From the NCBI RefSeq assembly GCF_001278945.1, contig NZ_LGRV01000005.1, positions 62,001-126,000 of the forward strand: a stretch of DNA of 64,000 bases. The letters run 5' to 3'. The DNA comes from Lysinibacillus contaminans (GTDB lineage Bacteria > Bacillota > Bacilli > Bacillales_A > Planococcaceae). A model generated the notes under the pieces. The model saw only the letters and a list, made by a program, of their open reading frames with translations, was not told where the DNA came from and ran no database searches. The translations under genes were made by a program, and so were the position numbers. The first letter of the stretch is position 1. The number at the start of each line of letters is the position of its first letter. Below, one piece after another: positions 9,415 through 38,000 of this stretch.

Positions 9415-9452
9415 AAAGAAGATCTCGGCTAAGGCTCCGAAATCTTCTTTTT
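9415..9452. terminator. Bidirectional terminator between convergent genes
   Basis: AAGAAGATCTCGG pairs with CCGAAATCTTCTT, with a CTAAGGCT loop and T runs outside both arms. It overlaps the last bases of the minus-strand methyltransferase gene and serves both convergent transcripts. Confidence 0.75.
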
Positions 9453-9971
9453 AAATACATTATTATAATTTGTAGTTTCTCTTAACGCTTTTTCTTCAAT
9501 TGGAATGCGTACTGATAACATGGTGATATTTAAAAGTGTGAAGCAAAAAGCTGTGAAGTACGCTTGGAACATCAAGGGTAGTAGCACAATTTCCAGGCAG
9601 ACAACGGCGTAATTGGGGTGGCGGAAAAATACATAGGGACCTTTTTTGACGATTTGGGAACCAGGTAAAATAATGATTTTCGTATTCCAAAATGGTCCTA
9701 ATGAACGTAAGCACCAAATCCGTAAAGCTTGAACAGCCATAAATAAAATAAAGAATAACGGGAATAAGGGCGAGAGACTACTATTATTCGTCAGCACTTC
9801 TACTATTAAAAACAGAAAAAAACTACAATGCAGTGCAATCATATAAGGATAATGTGAGGCACCTACTTCATAGGCACCTTGTAACAGCATCCATTTTTCA
9901 TTACGCTTCGCTATAAAAACCTCAGTTATTCGTTGGGCGATAACAAGAAATACGATGATGAAAAATAACAT
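9429..9971 (-). CDS. bpsB: Isoprenylcysteine carboxyl methyltransferase-like protein (BpsB/YpbQ)
   Basis: A 180-residue membrane protein with about five hydrophobic helices and the ICMT-type C-terminal motif GPYVFFRHPNYAVVCLEIVLLPL (RHPNY). In B. subtilis the gene after the type III polyketide synthase encodes such a protein, which O-methylates the alkylpyrone made by the synthase. The same order is seen here, two bases downstream of the synthase gene. The ATG start at 9971 follows the synthase stop closely, so translation is probably coupled. Confidence 0.85.
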   Translation of the reverse strand: MLFFIIVFLVIAQRITEVFIAKRNEKWMLLQGAYEVGASHYPYMIALHCSFFLFLIVEVLTNNSSLSPLFPLFFILFMAVQALRIWCLRSLGPFWNTKIIILPGSQIVKKGPYVFFRHPNYAVVCLEIVLLPLMFQAYFTAFCFTLLNITMLSVRIPIEEKALRETTNYNNVFKKKISEP

Positions 9972-9972
9972 A

Positions 9973-11055
9973 CTACTCCCTCCATTTTAGTAATACGGCT
10001 TCCGCACAGAAGCCAGGACCGAGAGCGACGAGCAAACCAGTATCATTGACATTACATTCTCTCAACATGAACTGCTCTAATACATAGAGGACGGTAGGAG
10101 ACGACATATTGCCGTGATGTCGTAATATTTCCCGAGAAATGTCGGTTTTTTGTTTTTTTAGTTGTAACGTGTCTTCATAGGCTCGTAATACTTTTTTTCC
10201 GCCAGGATGCGCGATGAAGTGATTAATTTGTTCACTATAGAGATGCTGTTCTGCTAGAAAGCTTTCGATAAATGGTCCGAGCCAGCTTGTAATAATAGAA
10301 GGAATACTTTTCTGGAAAACGACATGTAGGCCATTATTTCTAATATTCCATCCCATAACATTTTCTGAATCAGGCATCCACTTAGAGCCGGTAGTTATAA
10401 TAGAAGGAATACGTTTTTTCGTGTGAATGTCCACGTCATCGCTACATACAAGTATGCAAGCTGCGCCGTCTGCAAAAAGAGAAGCCCCGATTAAATTACT
10501 TTTTGAAAAGTCGTTCTGCTGAAATGTAAGACTGCAAAGTTCGACACATACGACGAGGACCTTTGCGTTAGGATGTGCCTTGCAAAAATCATAAGCTCTA
10601 CTTATGCCAGCTGCTCCACCAGCACAGCCAAGCCCCCATAGTGGAATGCGTTTTAGTCTGTCTGAAAAAGGAAGTCGATTCATCACCCGCGCATCAATAC
10701 TAGGTGTAGAAATACCTGTACTGCTCACAAAAATAATGGCATCAATATCCGTAGGGTTGATTGCTGTTTCTAAAAAAGCGTCGTTTTGGAGGCAGGCTTG
10801 AATGACTTCAACACTATAATGTGTTGCCAGCTCGATATATAAATTATTGCGTTCTTCAAAAGTATGTTCGGTACGGTGCCACTCAGCTGGAACACAAAAA
10901 TGTCGAGTTTCAATGTCGCCAGTTTCAAATACTTTTAAGTAACGCTCTAATCGTGGGATTTTCTCATGAAAGAGCTCTCTCGTTAATTCTTCTGCATTTG
11001 TCTGTTGTAATGTGTAAGGTGGTTGATATGTACTGACAGAAATAATTTTAGGCAA
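9973..11055 (-). CDS. bpsA: Type III polyketide synthase (alkylpyrone synthase BpsA/BcsA)
   Basis: A 360-residue chalcone-synthase-fold enzyme that extends long acyl-CoA starters with malonyl-CoA to give alkyl-pyrones or resorcinols. The catalytic triad is complete: Cys144 in WGLGCAGG, His283 in IAHPGG and Asn316 in HHGNMSSPT. The length is that of the bacterial family. The start is TTG at 11055 with AAGGAGATG upstream. It forms a two-gene operon with the methyltransferase. Its upstream region is shared divergently with the leader of the rsgA-like gene. Confidence 0.92.
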   Translation of the reverse strand: MPKIISVSTYQPPYTLQQTNAEELTRELFHEKIPRLERYLKVFETGDIETRHFCVPAEWHRTEHTFEERNNLYIELATHYSVEVIQACLQNDAFLETAINPTDIDAIIFVSSTGISTPSIDARVMNRLPFSDRLKRIPLWGLGCAGGAAGISRAYDFCKAHPNAKVLVVCVELCSLTFQQNDFSKSNLIGASLFADGAACILVCSDDVDIHTKKRIPSIITTGSKWMPDSENVMGWNIRNNGLHVVFQKSIPSIITSWLGPFIESFLAEQHLYSEQINHFIAHPGGKKVLRAYEDTLQLKKQKTDISREILRHHGNMSSPTVLYVLEQFMLRECNVNDTGLLVALGPGFCAEAVLLKWRE

Positions 11056-11136: not shown

Positions 11137-11165
11137 TTGACAATATTAAAGGATTTCTATATATT
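11137..11165 (+). promoter_or_regulatory. Near-consensus sigma-A promoter of the rsgA leader
   Basis: TTGACA (11137-11142) and TATATT (11160-11165) are separated by exactly 17 bases. The predicted transcript would start near 11172, giving a leader of about 200 nucleotides before the GTPase gene. Confidence 0.85.
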
Positions 11166-11199
11166 TGAAAGTAACTATTATGGAAGTAGGTGATGTGAC

Positions 11200-11274
11200 A
11201 TGATGAATAGATCCGTTTTTAGAGAACTGCAATTCGGTTTGTTCAATTTCACACGCCTAAAATGTACAATATGA
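11200..11274 (+). CDS. Putative 24-residue leader peptide of the rsgA-like gene
   Basis: A short reading frame, MMNRSVFRELQFGLFNFTRL then KCTI, starts at ATG 11200, six bases after an AGGTGA ribosome site and about 28 bases from the predicted transcript start. Its codons 9-13 lie on the strand (11225-11237) that can pair with the downstream terminator. The stop lies inside a small hairpin (11261-11283). It has no resemblance to a functional protein that I know. The position fits a regulatory leader whose translation decides transcription termination, but that role is inferred from layout only. Confidence 0.55.
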   Translation: MMNRSVFRELQFGLFNFTRLKCTI

Positions 11275-11341
11275 TTGTATATTCCCTTGAACGTGCCTGT
11301 GAAACCTTGTAACTGCCGAATTGCAGTTATAAGGTTTTTTT
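11225..11341 (+). promoter_or_regulatory. Candidate attenuator: antiterminator and terminator with shared strand
   Basis: Terminator: 11302-11316 pairs with 11323-11337 over 15 base pairs, with a CGAATT loop and a T tail to 11341; it ends 27 bases before the GTPase start codon. Antiterminator: AACTGCAATTCGG (11225-11237) is a perfect 13-base complement of CCGAATTGCAGTT (11316-11328), which includes the loop and half the right arm of the terminator. The two structures exclude each other. A local hairpin (11261-11270 with 11274-11283) brings the antiterminator arms together. Confidence 0.75.
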
Positions 11342-11368
11342 AATACGCATTTTCAGGAGGAAAACAAA

Positions 11369-12442
11369 TTGAAATTAACAACATTAGGGTTTTCAACATA
11401 TTTTGAAGAGCAAATGACAGCATTTATGGAGGAATCGAAATTAAAGAACTGTGTGCCGGCACGAGTTGTGTTAGAGCATAAGCATTCGTATCGTGTGCTA
11501 GCAGAAGAAGGGGAATGGCTGGCAACAGTTGCTGGGCATTTTGCCTATAGATCTCTGTCACGTGGGGATTTCCCGGCAGTGGGTGATTGGGTGCTTGTTG
11601 AAAAAATGGATGGTGAGGAAAAGGCCATTATTCCCAAGGTGTTTGCTAGAAAGTCAGTATTTTCACGAAAGGTTGCAGGCAGAGAGATTACGGAGCAAAT
11701 CGTAGCATCGAACGTTGACATTGTGCTCCTTGTGATGAGTTTAAATGCAGATTTTAATATTCGCCGCTTAGAGAGATACTTAGTGGCAGCTTGGGATTCA
11801 GGAGCGAAACCAGTAATTGTTCTGACAAAGGCAGATTTATGTTCGGATGTAGAAAGTTATTTACGTGAAGTTGAGGCAGTGGCATTTGGTATAGATGTTT
11901 TTGTGACGAGTGCATTGTCTGGTGAAGGGTTAGCCGATATTCGTGCACTCTTTACAGAAGGTGTAACAGGTGCATTGCTCGGCTCTTCCGGTGCTGGGAA
12001 ATCGACGCTGACTAACGCGCTAGTGGAAGATGAGTTGATGAAGGTTTCAGATATTCGTGAAGACGATGCGAAGGGCCGTCATACAACGACTCATCGGGAA
12101 TTGGTTGTCTTACCGAGTGGCGGTTGTTTAATAGATACGCCAGGAATGCGCGAGCTGCAACTATGGGATCAAGGAGATAGCTTGACTTCTAGTTTTAAGG
12201 ATATTGAAGAGCTTACCGCTGTTTGTCGCTACCGTGATTGCTCGCATCAAAATGAACCGCAATGTGCGGTTCAGCAAGCGATTCGAGACGGGGAACTAGA
12301 AGAATCACGCCTGCAAAGCTATTTTAAATTGCAAAAGGAACTGGCCTTTATCGAGCGTAAAACAAATACGCAGGCAAGACTAGATGAGCAACGTAAGTGG
12401 AAGCAAATTGCTAAGGGATTAAAGAAAGTCAAAAAGAAATAA
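11369..12442 (+). CDS. rsgA: RsgA-family circularly permuted ribosome-assembly GTPase
   Basis: A 357-residue GTPase of the RsgA/YjeQ/YloQ family, which acts in late maturation of the 30S subunit. The order is OB-fold, permuted GTPase, zinc finger. G4 TKAD is at 153-156, G1 GSSGAGKS at 205-212 and G3 DTPG at 256-259. The zinc ligands are Cys286, Cys291, His293 and Cys299. A lysine-rich tail ends the protein. It is longer than the usual Bacillus RsgA of about 290-300 residues, so it may be a second, specialised copy. The TTG start at 11369 has AGGAGG upstream. The preceding leader predicts control by transcription attenuation. It is followed by its own terminator. Confidence 0.9.
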   Translation: MKLTTLGFSTYFEEQMTAFMEESKLKNCVPARVVLEHKHSYRVLAEEGEWLATVAGHFAYRSLSRGDFPAVGDWVLVEKMDGEEKAIIPKVFARKSVFSRKVAGREITEQIVASNVDIVLLVMSLNADFNIRRLERYLVAAWDSGAKPVIVLTKADLCSDVESYLREVEAVAFGIDVFVTSALSGEGLADIRALFTEGVTGALLGSSGAGKSTLTNALVEDELMKVSDIREDDAKGRHTTTHRELVVLPSGGCLIDTPGMRELQLWDQGDSLTSSFKDIEELTAVCRYRDCSHQNEPQCAVQQAIRDGELEESRLQSYFKLQKELAFIERKTNTQARLDEQRKWKQIAKGLKKVKKK

Positions 12443-12451
12443 AGATTATAG

Positions 12452-12486
12452 AACACAGATATTGTTGAGCAGTATCTGTGTTTTTT
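12452..12486 (+). terminator. Terminator of the rsgA-like gene
   Basis: AACACAGATA (12452-12461) pairs with TATCTGTGTT (12473-12482) and runs into six T residues. Confidence 0.85.
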
Positions 12487-12526: not shown

Positions 12527-12949
12527 ATGACCATACAAAGCATTAATCATTTTTTATTTTCAGTGTCCAATTTAGATGCTTCAATAGCGTTTTATCAAAA
12601 TGTACTTGGTGCAAAATTATTAGTAAAAGGGAAAAGTACCGCCTATTTAGATTTAAATGGTGTTTGGCTAGCTTTAAATGTAGAGGTAGGCATCCCGCGT
12701 AATGAAATACATCAATCTTATACACATATTGCATTTTCTATAAATGAAGATGACGTCGATACGATGTTTGATAAGTTGCAGCGGAATAATGTGAACATTT
12801 TAGAAGGTAGAAAAAGAGATGTGGGGGATAAGTCGTCAATTTACTTTACAGACCCAGATGGTCATAAATTTGAATTCCATACAGGAACTTTAACAGATAG
12901 ATTGAATTATTATAAAAAGGAAAAAACATATATGGAGTTTTTTGATTGA
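12527..12949 (+). CDS. fosB: FosB metallothiol transferase (fosfomycin resistance)
   Basis: A 140-residue VOC-fold enzyme closely resembling Bacillus FosB, which opens the epoxide of fosfomycin with bacillithiol. The metal ligands sit where expected: His8 in INHFLFSVSNL, His67 in YTHIAF and Glu116 in FEFHTGTL. The PRNEI and SIYFTDPDGHKFEFH stretches are characteristic. The ATG start has TTGAGGTGA upstream. It is monocistronic between the rsgA terminator and the MetRS T-box leader. Confidence 0.92.
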   Translation: MTIQSINHFLFSVSNLDASIAFYQNVLGAKLLVKGKSTAYLDLNGVWLALNVEVGIPRNEIHQSYTHIAFSINEDDVDTMFDKLQRNNVNILEGRKRDVGDKSSIYFTDPDGHKFEFHTGTLTDRLNYYKKEKTYMEFFD

Positions 12950-13043: not shown

Positions 13044-13328
13044 AACTATAAAAAGCGTTGAGAAGGAAAAGTAAATTGGACGAAGTTTGATAGAGAGCCT
13101 CTGTTGGTGGAAATGAGGTAAATGGCCCCTTTCGAAAATGACCTTTGAGCTTCGTACCGAAAGCATTCGCGAGTAGGCTACGACGAGATAGGCACTCGTT
13201 ATAACAGCAGCAGTATCTCTTGCAACAAGTAGACGTACTGAATGAGGCAAATAGTGTAAGCTATTTGTAAATATAGGTGGTAACACGGGTAAACTCGTCC
13301 TAATCGTAATGATTAGGGCGTTTTTTTA
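13044..13328 (+). ncRNA. T-box riboswitch, methionine-specific
   Basis: Stem I shows the AGAGAGCC element and a GTTGGTGGAAATGAGG loop. The likely specifier codon is ATG (13138-13140), followed by A. The T-box sequence is AGGTGGTAACACG (13275-13287); its TGGT would pair with the ACCA end of uncharged tRNA-Met. The terminator is CGTCCTAATC (13296-13305) with GATTAGGGCG (13311-13320) and a run of T. Uncharged tRNA-Met should favour read-through into the synthetase gene. Confidence 0.92.
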
Positions 13329-13359
13329 TACACTTTTTTAGTGAGGGGAGCAATTTAGC

Positions 13360-14994
13360 ATGACAATTGTTATAGGAGGTGCGTGGCCATACGCTAATGG
13401 TTCACTGCATTTAGGGCATGTTGCCGCATTATTACCAGGTGATATTTTGGCTAGATATTATCGACAAAAGGGCGAGAAGGTTTTATATGTATCGGGGAGT
13501 GATTGTAACGGTACACCGATTTCGATTCGAGCAGCGCAAGAAAATACCACGACAGAGGCGATTGCCGATCATTATCATGCTGAATTTACGAAGTGTTTTA
13601 CTGATTTAGGTTTTACGTATGATAAGTACACAAGAACAGACGCGAAGCACCACCATGAAGCGGTGCAAAAGATATTTTTGCAGTTGTTAGCAAATGGATA
13701 TCTCTATAAAAAGAAAATCGAGCAGGCGTATTGCGAGACGGACAATCAGTTTTTACCTGACCGTTTTGTAGAAGGGAATTGTCCAAACTGTGGAGCTAAG
13801 GCTCGTGGAGATCAGTGTGATAATTGCTCTACAATTCTAGATCCGCTCGATTTAATCGACAAACGTTGTAAAATTTGCGGTAATGAGCCGAAGATTAGGG
13901 AAACCGAGCATTTCTATTTTGCCTTTAGTCAGTTTCAGGGGAGACTTGAAACGTATTTGGCAGATGCGAAGGCAGAGGGGAGCTGGCGAGATAATGCACT
14001 GGGCTTAACCGAGCGTTATTTGGTTGAAGGTGTGCCAGACCGCGCTGTGACAAGGGATTTACCGAATGGCATTGATGTGCCAGTTGCTGGATTTGAAGGC
14101 AAGAAAATTTACGTGTGGATTGAAGCAGTGGCAGGATATTTAACGGCAAGTATGGAATGGGCGAGACAGCAGGGCGTTGCGTTTGAAGATTTATGGAATA
14201 AAGAAACGATTTCCTATTATGTGCATGGTAAGGACAATATCCCGTTCCATACAGTTATTTGGCCGGCGATTTTAATGGGTATTAACCAGAAAGCACTCCC
14301 GACACATATTGTATCGAATGAATATTTGACGTTGGAGAAACGAAAGTTATCTACGAGCCAAAATTGGGCGGTGTGGGTGCCTTATATTTTGAGTAAGTAT
14401 GATGCCGATTCAATTCGATATTTTTTAACGATGAATGCGCCCGAAAATCGTGATACTGACTTTTCGTGGCGAGAATTTATTTATAGTCATAATGGAGAGC
14501 TGCTTGGCGCATACGGCAATTTCGTCAATCGGACATTGAAGTTTTTGGAGAAGTCGTTTGAAAGTAAGGTACCACAAGTTTCTGTAGATAGAGATGTGCA
14601 AGAGCGTACAGTGAAGCTATTTGTTGATGCTGGTCAGCAAATTGAAGGTGGGCATTTTAAACAGGCTTTGGAGGGGGTTTTTGAATATATTCGTGCGGCT
14701 AATCGTTATTTTGATGAACAGCAGCCGTGGATACAGGTAAAGGAAGATACGGTAGCCGGTGATGTGACACTCGCAACTTGTGTTTATATCATTGCCAATC
14801 TGGGTCAGCTATTACAGCCGTTTTTACCATTCTCAGCAGGAAAAATTCGTGACATGCTGGATGTGAAAGAAGTTGTGTGGCATGAGCAGGTGGTACTTCC
14901 GTTGGTTATTGATGAGGTCTCTCCATTATTTGAACGTATAGATGTTGGAATGATTGAAGAAGAGTACAATAAATTAGTGGACAGCAGTAAATAA
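13360..14994 (+). CDS. metG: Methionyl-tRNA synthetase (E. coli-like, probable second MetRS)
   Basis: A 544-residue class I synthetase that charges tRNA-Met. The HIGH motif is HLGH near residue 20. The zinc region has paired CxxC knuckles (CPNC, CDNC, CKIC) as in E. coli-type enzymes. The catalytic loop reads KLSTS in place of KMSKS. No C-terminal EMAP/Trbp111 domain is present, unlike the longer MetS typical of Bacillus (about 660 residues). Some Firmicutes carry such a second MetRS, which resists inhibitors of the first; that role is inferred. A Met T-box controls it. The following terminator is shared with leuA. Confidence 0.9.
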
Positions 14995-16748: not shown

Positions 16749-17017
16749 ACCCGTCTCTATATAAAAATATAGAGACGAGTTTTTACTCGCGGTACCACTC
16801 TAATTGACTTTATCTTTACAGAAAAAGTCCCCTTATCGACAGCTATCACTGTCTATCCCTATAACGGGGGAAACCGACATCCCTTACTCTTTATTTTCAG
16901 GGAGTGGCTCATGGACGAGTTCAAAATGTGTGTCTGCCGATTTGCACCAACCACCGGCTCTCTACAAGTACACAGGCATTTCTACTATTTCCAATCTAGG
17001 CCTACAATGTGTTGTTG
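16749..17017 (-). ncRNA. T-box riboswitch, leucine-specific
   Basis: On the minus strand the T-box AGAGTGGTACCGCG lies at 16801-16788. The AGAGAGCCGGTGGTTGGTG stem I elements lie upstream. The likely specifier is CTC (16919-16917), preceded by GAA and followed by G, as in the Bacillus ilv-leu leader. The terminator pairs 16777-16767 with 16762-16752 and ends in seven T residues. Uncharged tRNA-Leu should turn on leuA. Confidence 0.92.
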
Positions 17018-37475: not shown

Positions 37476-37759
37476 TTGATGCAAATAGGCCAAGGGGAAT
37501 TTGATTGATATATAATATGGTAGATTTGATGAATGAGATACAAAATATACGTAGTTGTAAGTGTTTTTATAAGTAACGAACATTGAGTTTTGTCGATAGC
37601 GATTTATTGAGTACATAATGCGGGATTTTCTGTGTTTAGCAACAGATAACTGGTTGCTATAGTGAGAGTGTTTACTTGTTTTCTTAATCTTTCAACTACT
37701 ATTAGGTATGGATTTATGATAAACTGCTTAACAAGTGAATAATTCTTGCAGAATAAAGG

Positions 37760-37945
37760 GGCTAGCTATTAGCATAATCGGGAATTCGGTGTAAGGCCGA
37801 AGCTGTTTCCGCAACTGTAAGTGCAGATGAAGTAAGAGAAATGCCACTGTCGAAAGAAGAAAAATGCTTCTACTAGATGGGAAGGCGCTTATGATTTTGC
37901 TACAAAATTATTGTAGTAAGCTGCACAAGCCAGGAGACCGACCTT
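37760..37945 (+). ncRNA. Cobalamin (B12) riboswitch
   Basis: The conserved blocks appear in order: GGGAATTCGGTGTAAGGCCG (37780 on), CTGTTTCCGCAACTGTAA, GCCACTG (37843-37849), GGGAAGGCGC (37879 on) and the B12 box AAGCCAGGAGACCGACC (37927-37943). No intrinsic terminator follows. An AGGAGG site lies at 37977-37982, so control of translation initiation is more likely than termination. Confidence 0.93.
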
Positions 37946-38000
37946 TATTTGAGCGTATAAGCACTCTTCGGGAGATAGGAGGATATACGGCAAATACATA

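Follow-up and report, generated by a model that had tools for sequence, protein, structure and literature searches.

Attenuators built around a leader ORF are a good signpost to intrinsic resistance factors, among them ABC-F proteins, HflXr and BmrCD. In the vmlR leader of Bacillus subtilis, stalling on the upstream ORF (uORF) constitutes the ON state (PMC9226507), and according to the paper on cplR it is probably PLSA and nucleoside drugs that stall short uORFs of this kind (PMC10201436). Expression of bmrCD, in the same species, is induced by lincomycin, erythromycin and chloramphenicol (PMC4191407). The same signpost is encountered here, in many Bacilli families, before an RsgA paralog annotated in databases as a 30S-assembly factor. 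The locus lies in a window of 64,000 nucleotides from Lysinibacillus contaminans, the whole stretch that was analysed, and comprises the following features:

11137-11165, + strand: sigma-A-type promoter TTGACA-17-TATATT, 11 of 12 consensus matches
11187-11259, + strand: P1, putative anti-antiterminator hairpin, in which 11187-11198 (leader ribosome site) pairs with 11249-11259, plus inner pairs
11188-11192, + strand: ribosome-binding site of the leader ORF, AGGTG, within helix P1
11200-11274, + strand: leader ORF, 24 codons, peptide MMNRSVFRELQFGLFNFTRLKCTI
11225-11237, + strand: 5' strand of the antiterminator (AT), AACTGCAATTCGG, within leader codons 9-13
11247-11253, + strand: 5' strand of the antiterminator extension, TTTCACA, pairing with 11298-11304 and overlapping the 3' strand of P1
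11262-11282, + strand: P2, hairpin that spans the leader stop codon and forms the apex of the antiterminator fold
11283-11361, + strand: P3, 11283-11300 paired with 11343-11361, enclosing the terminator and pairing the rsgA ribosome site
11301-11338, + strand: intrinsic terminator hairpin, 16 bp, with a T tract to about 11341
11316-11328, + strand: 3' strand of the antiterminator, inside the terminator
11355-11360, + strand: ribosome-binding site of long rsgA, AGGAGG, covered by P3
11369-12442, + strand: long RsgA-like GTPase paralog, 357 aa, TTG start
12450-12484, + strand: terminator-like hairpin 3' of long rsgA

The attenuator layout is real and above chance. The promoter, the 24-codon leader frame with its ribosome site and the antiterminator (13 perfect pairs between 11225-11237 and 11316-11328) had been recognised in a first-pass annotation of this DNA and were all found again; the terminator hairpin and its T tail stood as well, with 16 bp in place of the 15 bp at 11302-11341 given originally. 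P1, the stop-codon hairpin P2, P3 and the status of this rsgA as a second, long paralog were absent from that annotation. In a search of the 165 nt ahead of each of 50 terminator-like hairpins (window, both strands), the longest perfect upstream complement was 13 nt at this locus and at most 9 nt elsewhere. None of 200 shuffles was as stable as the terminator hairpin (-21.4 kcal/mol, z -7.3), and the fold of the 206-nt leader reaches a z of -6.6 against shuffles. The terminator was not picked up by a simple consensus scan, probably because its outer A-T pairs consume the T tract, while a second hairpin scan did list it. The promoter match is weak when taken alone, 18 promoter-like sites being present in 6.5 kb versus 18.4 expected. 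A site with at least 9 of 12 matches precedes 63 of the 68 relatives' leaders described below, the window's own included (mononucleotide shuffles, 20.3%), and its distance to the leader, counted from the end of the site to 8 nt ahead of the leader ribosome site, is nearly fixed (median 14 nt, quartiles 14-15).

The terminator was also considered as that of the upstream gene, a possibility that is ruled out since this gene (9973-11055) is divergent, on the minus strand. The divergent pair at 9429-11055 (-), a type III polyketide synthase resembling DpgA, with a score below its cut-off, and an isoprenylcysteine-methyltransferase-like protein, shares its intergenic region with the rsgA promoter. 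On the other side, the hairpin at 12450-12484 makes a single-gene transcript likely. Behind long rsgA lie a FosB/FosM-like bacillithiol transferase gene (12527-12949, +), a homologue of which occurs within the same 4-kb stretch as long rsgA in 26 of 27 host-genus loci, and then, at 13049-14994 (+), a methionyl-tRNA synthetase gene of the PRK00133/metG type preceded by a T-box. A second T-box (16768-17007, -) and a cobalamin riboswitch (37740-37960, +) are found further along the window.

By its sequence, the product of 11369-12442 belongs to the RsgA GTPase superfamily: it scores 180 bits with PF03193 and 175 bits with TIGR00157 (cut-off 100), and the P-loop, KxD, DTPG and C-C-H-C zinc-motif residues are intact and invariant across 26 aligned proteins. 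That it is the housekeeping RsgA (CpgA/YloQ) was rejected. The genome has a second RsgA, an open frame of 299 aa that is 33% identical to the long form. In the PDB this second copy matches 1t9h best ('Probable GTPase engC', E 1.3e-101), the YloQ/CpgA protein of B. subtilis; the long form scores about equally with several RsgA PDB chains (best E 3.1e-38). All of 40 genomes chosen for having long RsgA also contain a separate copy that matches the housekeeping query more closely, and the RsgA_N domain (PF16745) is detected in the housekeeping copy but not in the long form at E<=0.001. Long RsgA occurs in 163 of 200 host-family genomes (E<=1e-60) and in 132 of 299 genomes of the host's class, 18 of them from the host family (E<=1e-75). 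Two to three RsgA matches (E<=1e-60) are seen in some genomes (G023, G024, G109, G115, G170, G192, G198 and others). The first-pass annotation had the switch link ribosome stress to 30S assembly; since the gene is this long paralog, with its 33% identity to the housekeeping copy, and not the 30S-assembly rsgA, that link is a guess, and the earlier interpretation as a whole is partly supported.

To follow the leader across relatives, upstream DNA was taken from 70 host-family loci (L001, L003-L071). A leader ORF, whose conservation the first-pass annotation had proposed as a check, is present in 69 of them, the remaining stretch being cut off, and in 14 of 14 further host-family genomes, as a ribosome-site-led ORF of 20-29 codons. 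The leader of L061 was placed by hand, the L057 stretch started 13 nt inside the leader found by the covariance model described below, and L037 was missed by the parser though its leader is visible; 68 leaders from 13 genera, 27 of them from the host genus, were parsed by script. Of the 14 further genomes, eight gave no match with the covariance model (five listed so, three absent from the match table), two gave weak matches and four lay outside the model search. Parsed leader ORFs are 21-31 codons long. All 68 leaders keep the leader frame open over 20 codons, partly by construction because extraction demanded an ORF of 17-40 codons, whereas frames +1 and +2 are open in 6 and 11, respectively. 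This bears on the idea that the element is a metabolite riboswitch, a T-box or a protein-bound leader in which the ORF is incidental. Although a strong conserved RNA structure is what such a leader would have, 11137-11371 matches no Rfam family at gathering score, while three families reach theirs elsewhere in the window; the frame stays open as just described, in a parsing that needed an ORF and with leaders from 69 of 70 loci; and leaders of other families differ in sequence yet mostly keep the ORF. I regard this idea as highly improbable.

Conservation of the helices was assessed by a swap test, in which the 5' strands from one genus were combined with 3' strands taken from the others (68 leaders, 13 genera). 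Self pairing was stronger than swapped pairing for AT (-24.5 vs -14.5 kcal/mol; 13 of 13 genera), for P1 (-15.4 vs -11.1 kcal/mol; 12 of 13, failing in g16) and for P3 (-16.5 vs -12.1 kcal/mol; 12 of 13, failing in g19), the swap test being the one source for the conservation of P3. The AT extension gave -13.0 vs -9.7 kcal/mol (12 of 13 genera), which is weak evidence because its windows take in P2 pairs. On an alignment of 42 sequences, P1, AT and the terminator reached covariation scores of 0.314, 0.264 and 0.578, respectively; for none of the three did a slid control or any of 500 shuffles score as high. The two pair-counting measures least inflated by relatedness, pairs changed on both sides and pair types, are ordinary for AT (matched by 240 and 37 of 500 shuffles, respectively), mixed for P1 (83 and 9 of 500 as high) and, for the terminator, clear in types (0 of 500) with 29 of 500 in pairs. 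The conservation argument is carried by the swap test and the slid controls. In 65 of 68 leaders P2 bridges the stop codon with 4 or more pairs, and in 54 of 68 its energy falls within the lowest 5% of shuffles. A TTNTTT (NusG pause) motif occurs in 22 of 68 leaders and is absent from the window.

These comparisons indicate that antiterminator and terminator are mutually exclusive and both conserved across genera, so that the covariation suggested as a check in the earlier annotation is borne out, for the antiterminator by swap test and alignment score and for the terminator by alignment score. They further identify P1 as the probable anti-antiterminator hairpin, which would hold the start of the leader ORF; this third helix is required for the switch logic. 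Sequence and comparison show promoter, leader ORF, P1, antiterminator, terminator and P3 to be present and conserved within the host family. One could still suppose that control is constitutive, the terminator merely lowering rsgA expression and the leader setting a fixed read-through. Neither alternative helices preserved in 13 genera nor a retained ORF, however, would be required for a fixed low level, and I consider constitutive control very unlikely.

Of the 68 leader peptides, 51 have Asn as their third residue (27 of the 68 being from one genus), and codons 19-21 encode Arg-Leu-Lys (RLK) in 22 of 27 host-genus leaders, the window's included; at that position other genera have HLK, HLN, RLQ, RHP, HHT or SHS. 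Pairwise comparison of the 27 host-genus leaders, in which pairs are not independent, gave 245 synonymous and 896 non-synonymous substitutions versus 244.2 and 896.8 under neutral expectation, and the leaders of two other genera likewise show neutral-like amino-acid change. Since amino-acid changes run at the neutral expectation, the peptide itself is unlikely to be read. The same data bear on a trp-type amino-acid-starvation attenuator, which would share with this locus a leader ORF and alternative hairpins and to which the four Phe codons of the window's leader might belong. There is, however, no run of a single amino acid, the Phe codons are not retained in other genera, where composition varies freely, and the controlled gene is not biosynthetic; starvation control is barely credible.

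To locate the ON signal, the window leader was folded at equilibrium with the positions from -15 to +17 relative to the P-site codon blocked as a footprint. Once the RNA extends to 11338 and the terminator is complete, a ribosome whose P site is at codons 1-3 leaves the antiterminator at 0.97-0.98 and the terminator at 0.01; codon 4 is mixed, and codons 5-24 give the terminator at 0.97-0.98. Without a ribosome, the antiterminator beats P1 as long as the RNA ends at 11328, and P1 and the terminator win once it reaches 11334, so that P1 must act kinetically. The first-pass annotation had expected pausing at the first codons to favour the antiterminator and had proposed folding with and without a ribosome: in the window the expectation holds, for codons 1-3 and not for mid-ORF positions, but across relatives it is realised only in part. 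Arrest at codon 2 lowers the genus-mean terminator probability in 13 of 13 genera and brings it below 0.5 in 8 of 13 (68 leaders); leader by leader, only 30 of 68 fall below 0.5 at equilibrium, the host-genus mean falls only to 0.58, and in two genera the change is only from 0.97 to 0.92. Arrest at codon 12 lowers the genus mean in one genus (g12, 0.96 to 0.93).

These foldings also weigh on a drug-specific stall of the nascent chain towards the end of the leader, at Arg-Leu-Lys, a +X+ motif as in hflXr and erm, which would free codons 9-13 while blocking the 3' strand of P1. Its attractions are the frequency of RLK in the host genus, an hflXr leader peptide that carries RLR (PMC6310831), and the folding result that a ribosome at codons 19-24 favours the antiterminator (0.97) while the RNA ends at 11328. 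Yet the completed terminator wins at codons 19-24 in the window, in an equilibrium calculation whose reach does not extend to a kinetic role; arrest at codon 21 leaves the terminator above 0.5 in 67 of 68 leaders; and an RLR/RLK-type stall peptide is not kept between genera, with amino acids changing at the neutral rate and no selection on them seen, which speaks against membership of the +X+ class. As the main sensor, the RLK stall was rejected on folding and on leader substitution counts, and I hold it to be unlikely. The effective arrest position and the indifference to peptide sequence together point to arrest just after initiation, and by the folding model a ribosome arrested at codons 1-3 is the favoured ON signal.

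The locus is probably, then, a ribosome-sensing transcription attenuator of the vmlR/cplR type, with probably a translational layer added, that controls the long RsgA paralog. With no ribosome, or with free translation, P1 and then the terminator would form, and most transcripts would end near 11341; in those that read through, the rsgA ribosome site would be kept within P3. A ribosome held at leader codons 1-3 would block the 5' strand of P1 while leaving codons 9-13 free, whereupon the antiterminator would form and the terminator could not. In this ON state P3 would be disfavoured because it would be a pseudoknot with the antiterminator. A second, translational layer through P3 is possible; equilibrium folding opens the rsgA ribosome site by more than 0.2 in only 5 of 68 leaders and closes it in 1, so that topology is the sole argument for the release of P3. 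Drugs that halt ribosomes directly after initiation, such as lincosamides, pleuromutilins, streptogramin A and nucleoside inhibitors, are the likely inducers. The product would be a ribosome-acting GTPase made on demand, which perhaps clears, splits or rechecks stalled or drug-bound ribosomes. As a group, ribosome-associated GTPases in excess are reported to promote subunit dissociation in vitro (PMC8579695), and by analogy the clearing of stalled ribosomes by long RsgA is plausible.

How closely the leader is tied to long rsgA was examined with a covariance model built from 29 leaders. In the window's own genome the one strong match is at the rsgA leader itself (E 1.3e-28). The next (E 0.015) resembles, by eye, a chance terminator, and the leader as a multi-gene element in this genome was discarded. 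Matches at E<=0.05 were obtained in 94 of 151 host-family genomes. At E<=1e-4 all 86 matches in these 151 genomes lie upstream of long rsgA and on its strand, 85 placed by coordinates (at most 464 nt away) and one, in G043, by reading the sequence; 60 of the 86 come from genomes outside the training set of the model. Among the weak matches, those in G135 and on contig C57 of G109 look terminator-like only, and others occur in G031 (opposite strand), G091 (contig C289), G025 and, as a second one, G065.

Two further matches (L157 on contig C52 of G071, E 0.002, and L158 on contig C12 of G090, E 0.008) are leaders with a uORF and a terminator before a multidrug-type ABC exporter pair, the first protein of which matches multidrug ABC families best, below their cut-offs. 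I take this exporter pair to be bmrCD-like. A copy of the leader, 78% identical, is present in the plasmid records CP031730.1 and CP065518.1 (315 kb), labelled Stenotrophomonas rhizophila; the label fits a Bacilli element poorly, and the replicon is possibly mislabelled or a contaminant.

Outside the host family, a recognisable rsgA ribosome site was present at 54 of 63 long-rsgA loci. Directly ahead of the gene, 46 of these 54 carry an ORF of 12-35 codons led by a ribosome site, where shuffles predict 5.1 and the reverse strand gives 4. The nine loci dropped are all named Paenibacillus, and counting them as misses gives 46 of 63. The loci include close relatives, L128 and L171 being the same contig. 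Among 13 loci named Paenibacillus or Paenibacillaceae, 11 showed no leader ORF. A per-sequence shuffle test over long windows is weak (under its criterion 29 of 43 non-family loci have a uORF), and 11 of 43 pass a strict terminator-plus-8-nt rule, so reliance is placed on the count of 46 of 54. These leaders differ in sequence and mostly retain the ORF. By eye, Cytobacillus-type leaders have a CACAGCCCA/TGGGCTGTG antiterminator, while Heyndrickxia and others have changed but still complementary versions. In L162-L166 and L180 the leader is apparently reduced, again by eye, to the ORF and a GGAGG/CCTCC/GGAGG choice, which looks like a pure translation attenuator in some other families.

The placement of the switch suggests a part for long RsgA in an inducible response of these soil bacteria to blocked ribosomes. 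More tentatively, and with somewhat less than even confidence, I propose that long RsgA represents a class of inducible GTPases for ribosome protection or recycling that extends across the Bacilli and is so far undescribed, an RsgA counterpart of HflXr; most of its copies would stand behind a leader ORF that detects ribosome arrest just after initiation, by transcription or translation attenuation according to lineage. The gene under control, the wide leader-ORF association and the length of the ORF appear to be new; the mechanism is already known. The first-pass annotation knew of no described rsgA attenuator, and none, nor a leader peptide or uORF for rsgA, was found among the literature matches listed for RsgA/CpgA by title and start of abstract, which is no proof of absence since subscription literature is mostly outside them. 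RsgA and uORF co-occur in PMC7157823, which concerns Streptomyces.

Of the described systems, the vmlR leader shares with the rsgA leader an anti-antiterminator hairpin with the uORF at its base, a further hairpin at the apex of the antiterminator (in vmlR the pause hairpin), an intrinsic terminator and a helix over the ribosome site of the gene (PMC9226507). The vmlR uORF, however, is M-I-N, of 3 codons, and published short uORFs of the vmlR/cplR type have 3-4 codons, which counts against the model since rsgA leaders have 21-31 (with, as noted, a frequent Asn at residue 3). Moreover, the antiterminator strand of the rsgA leader lies inside the ORF, and the gene is an RsgA paralog whereas vmlR is an ABC-F gene; and induction of vmlR is demonstrated (PMC9226507), while the rsgA switch is known from sequence comparison and folding. 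In the cplR leader of Clostridioides difficile, too, a 5' hairpin hides the uORF and, as proposed for rsgA, transcription and translation layers are combined; it differs in its 3-codon uORF (MRI), its ABC-F gene and a terminator that itself hides the ribosome site (PMC10201436). The bmrB/bmrCD system of B. subtilis, like the rsgA model, uses ribosome-mediated transcription attenuation, but controls a multidrug ABC transporter and has its terminator inside the leader ORF (PMC4191407). By analogy, the nearest functional precedent would be hflXr (lmo0762) of Listeria monocytogenes, likewise an attenuator with a small ORF before a homologue of a ribosome GTPase; it differs in its 14-residue peptide with RLR, in belonging to the HflX family and in that resistance is demonstrated (PMC6310831). 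If induction is true here as well, RsgA paralogs would join HflXr as GTPases made only when ribosomes are blocked, and the role of the second RsgA would become directly testable.
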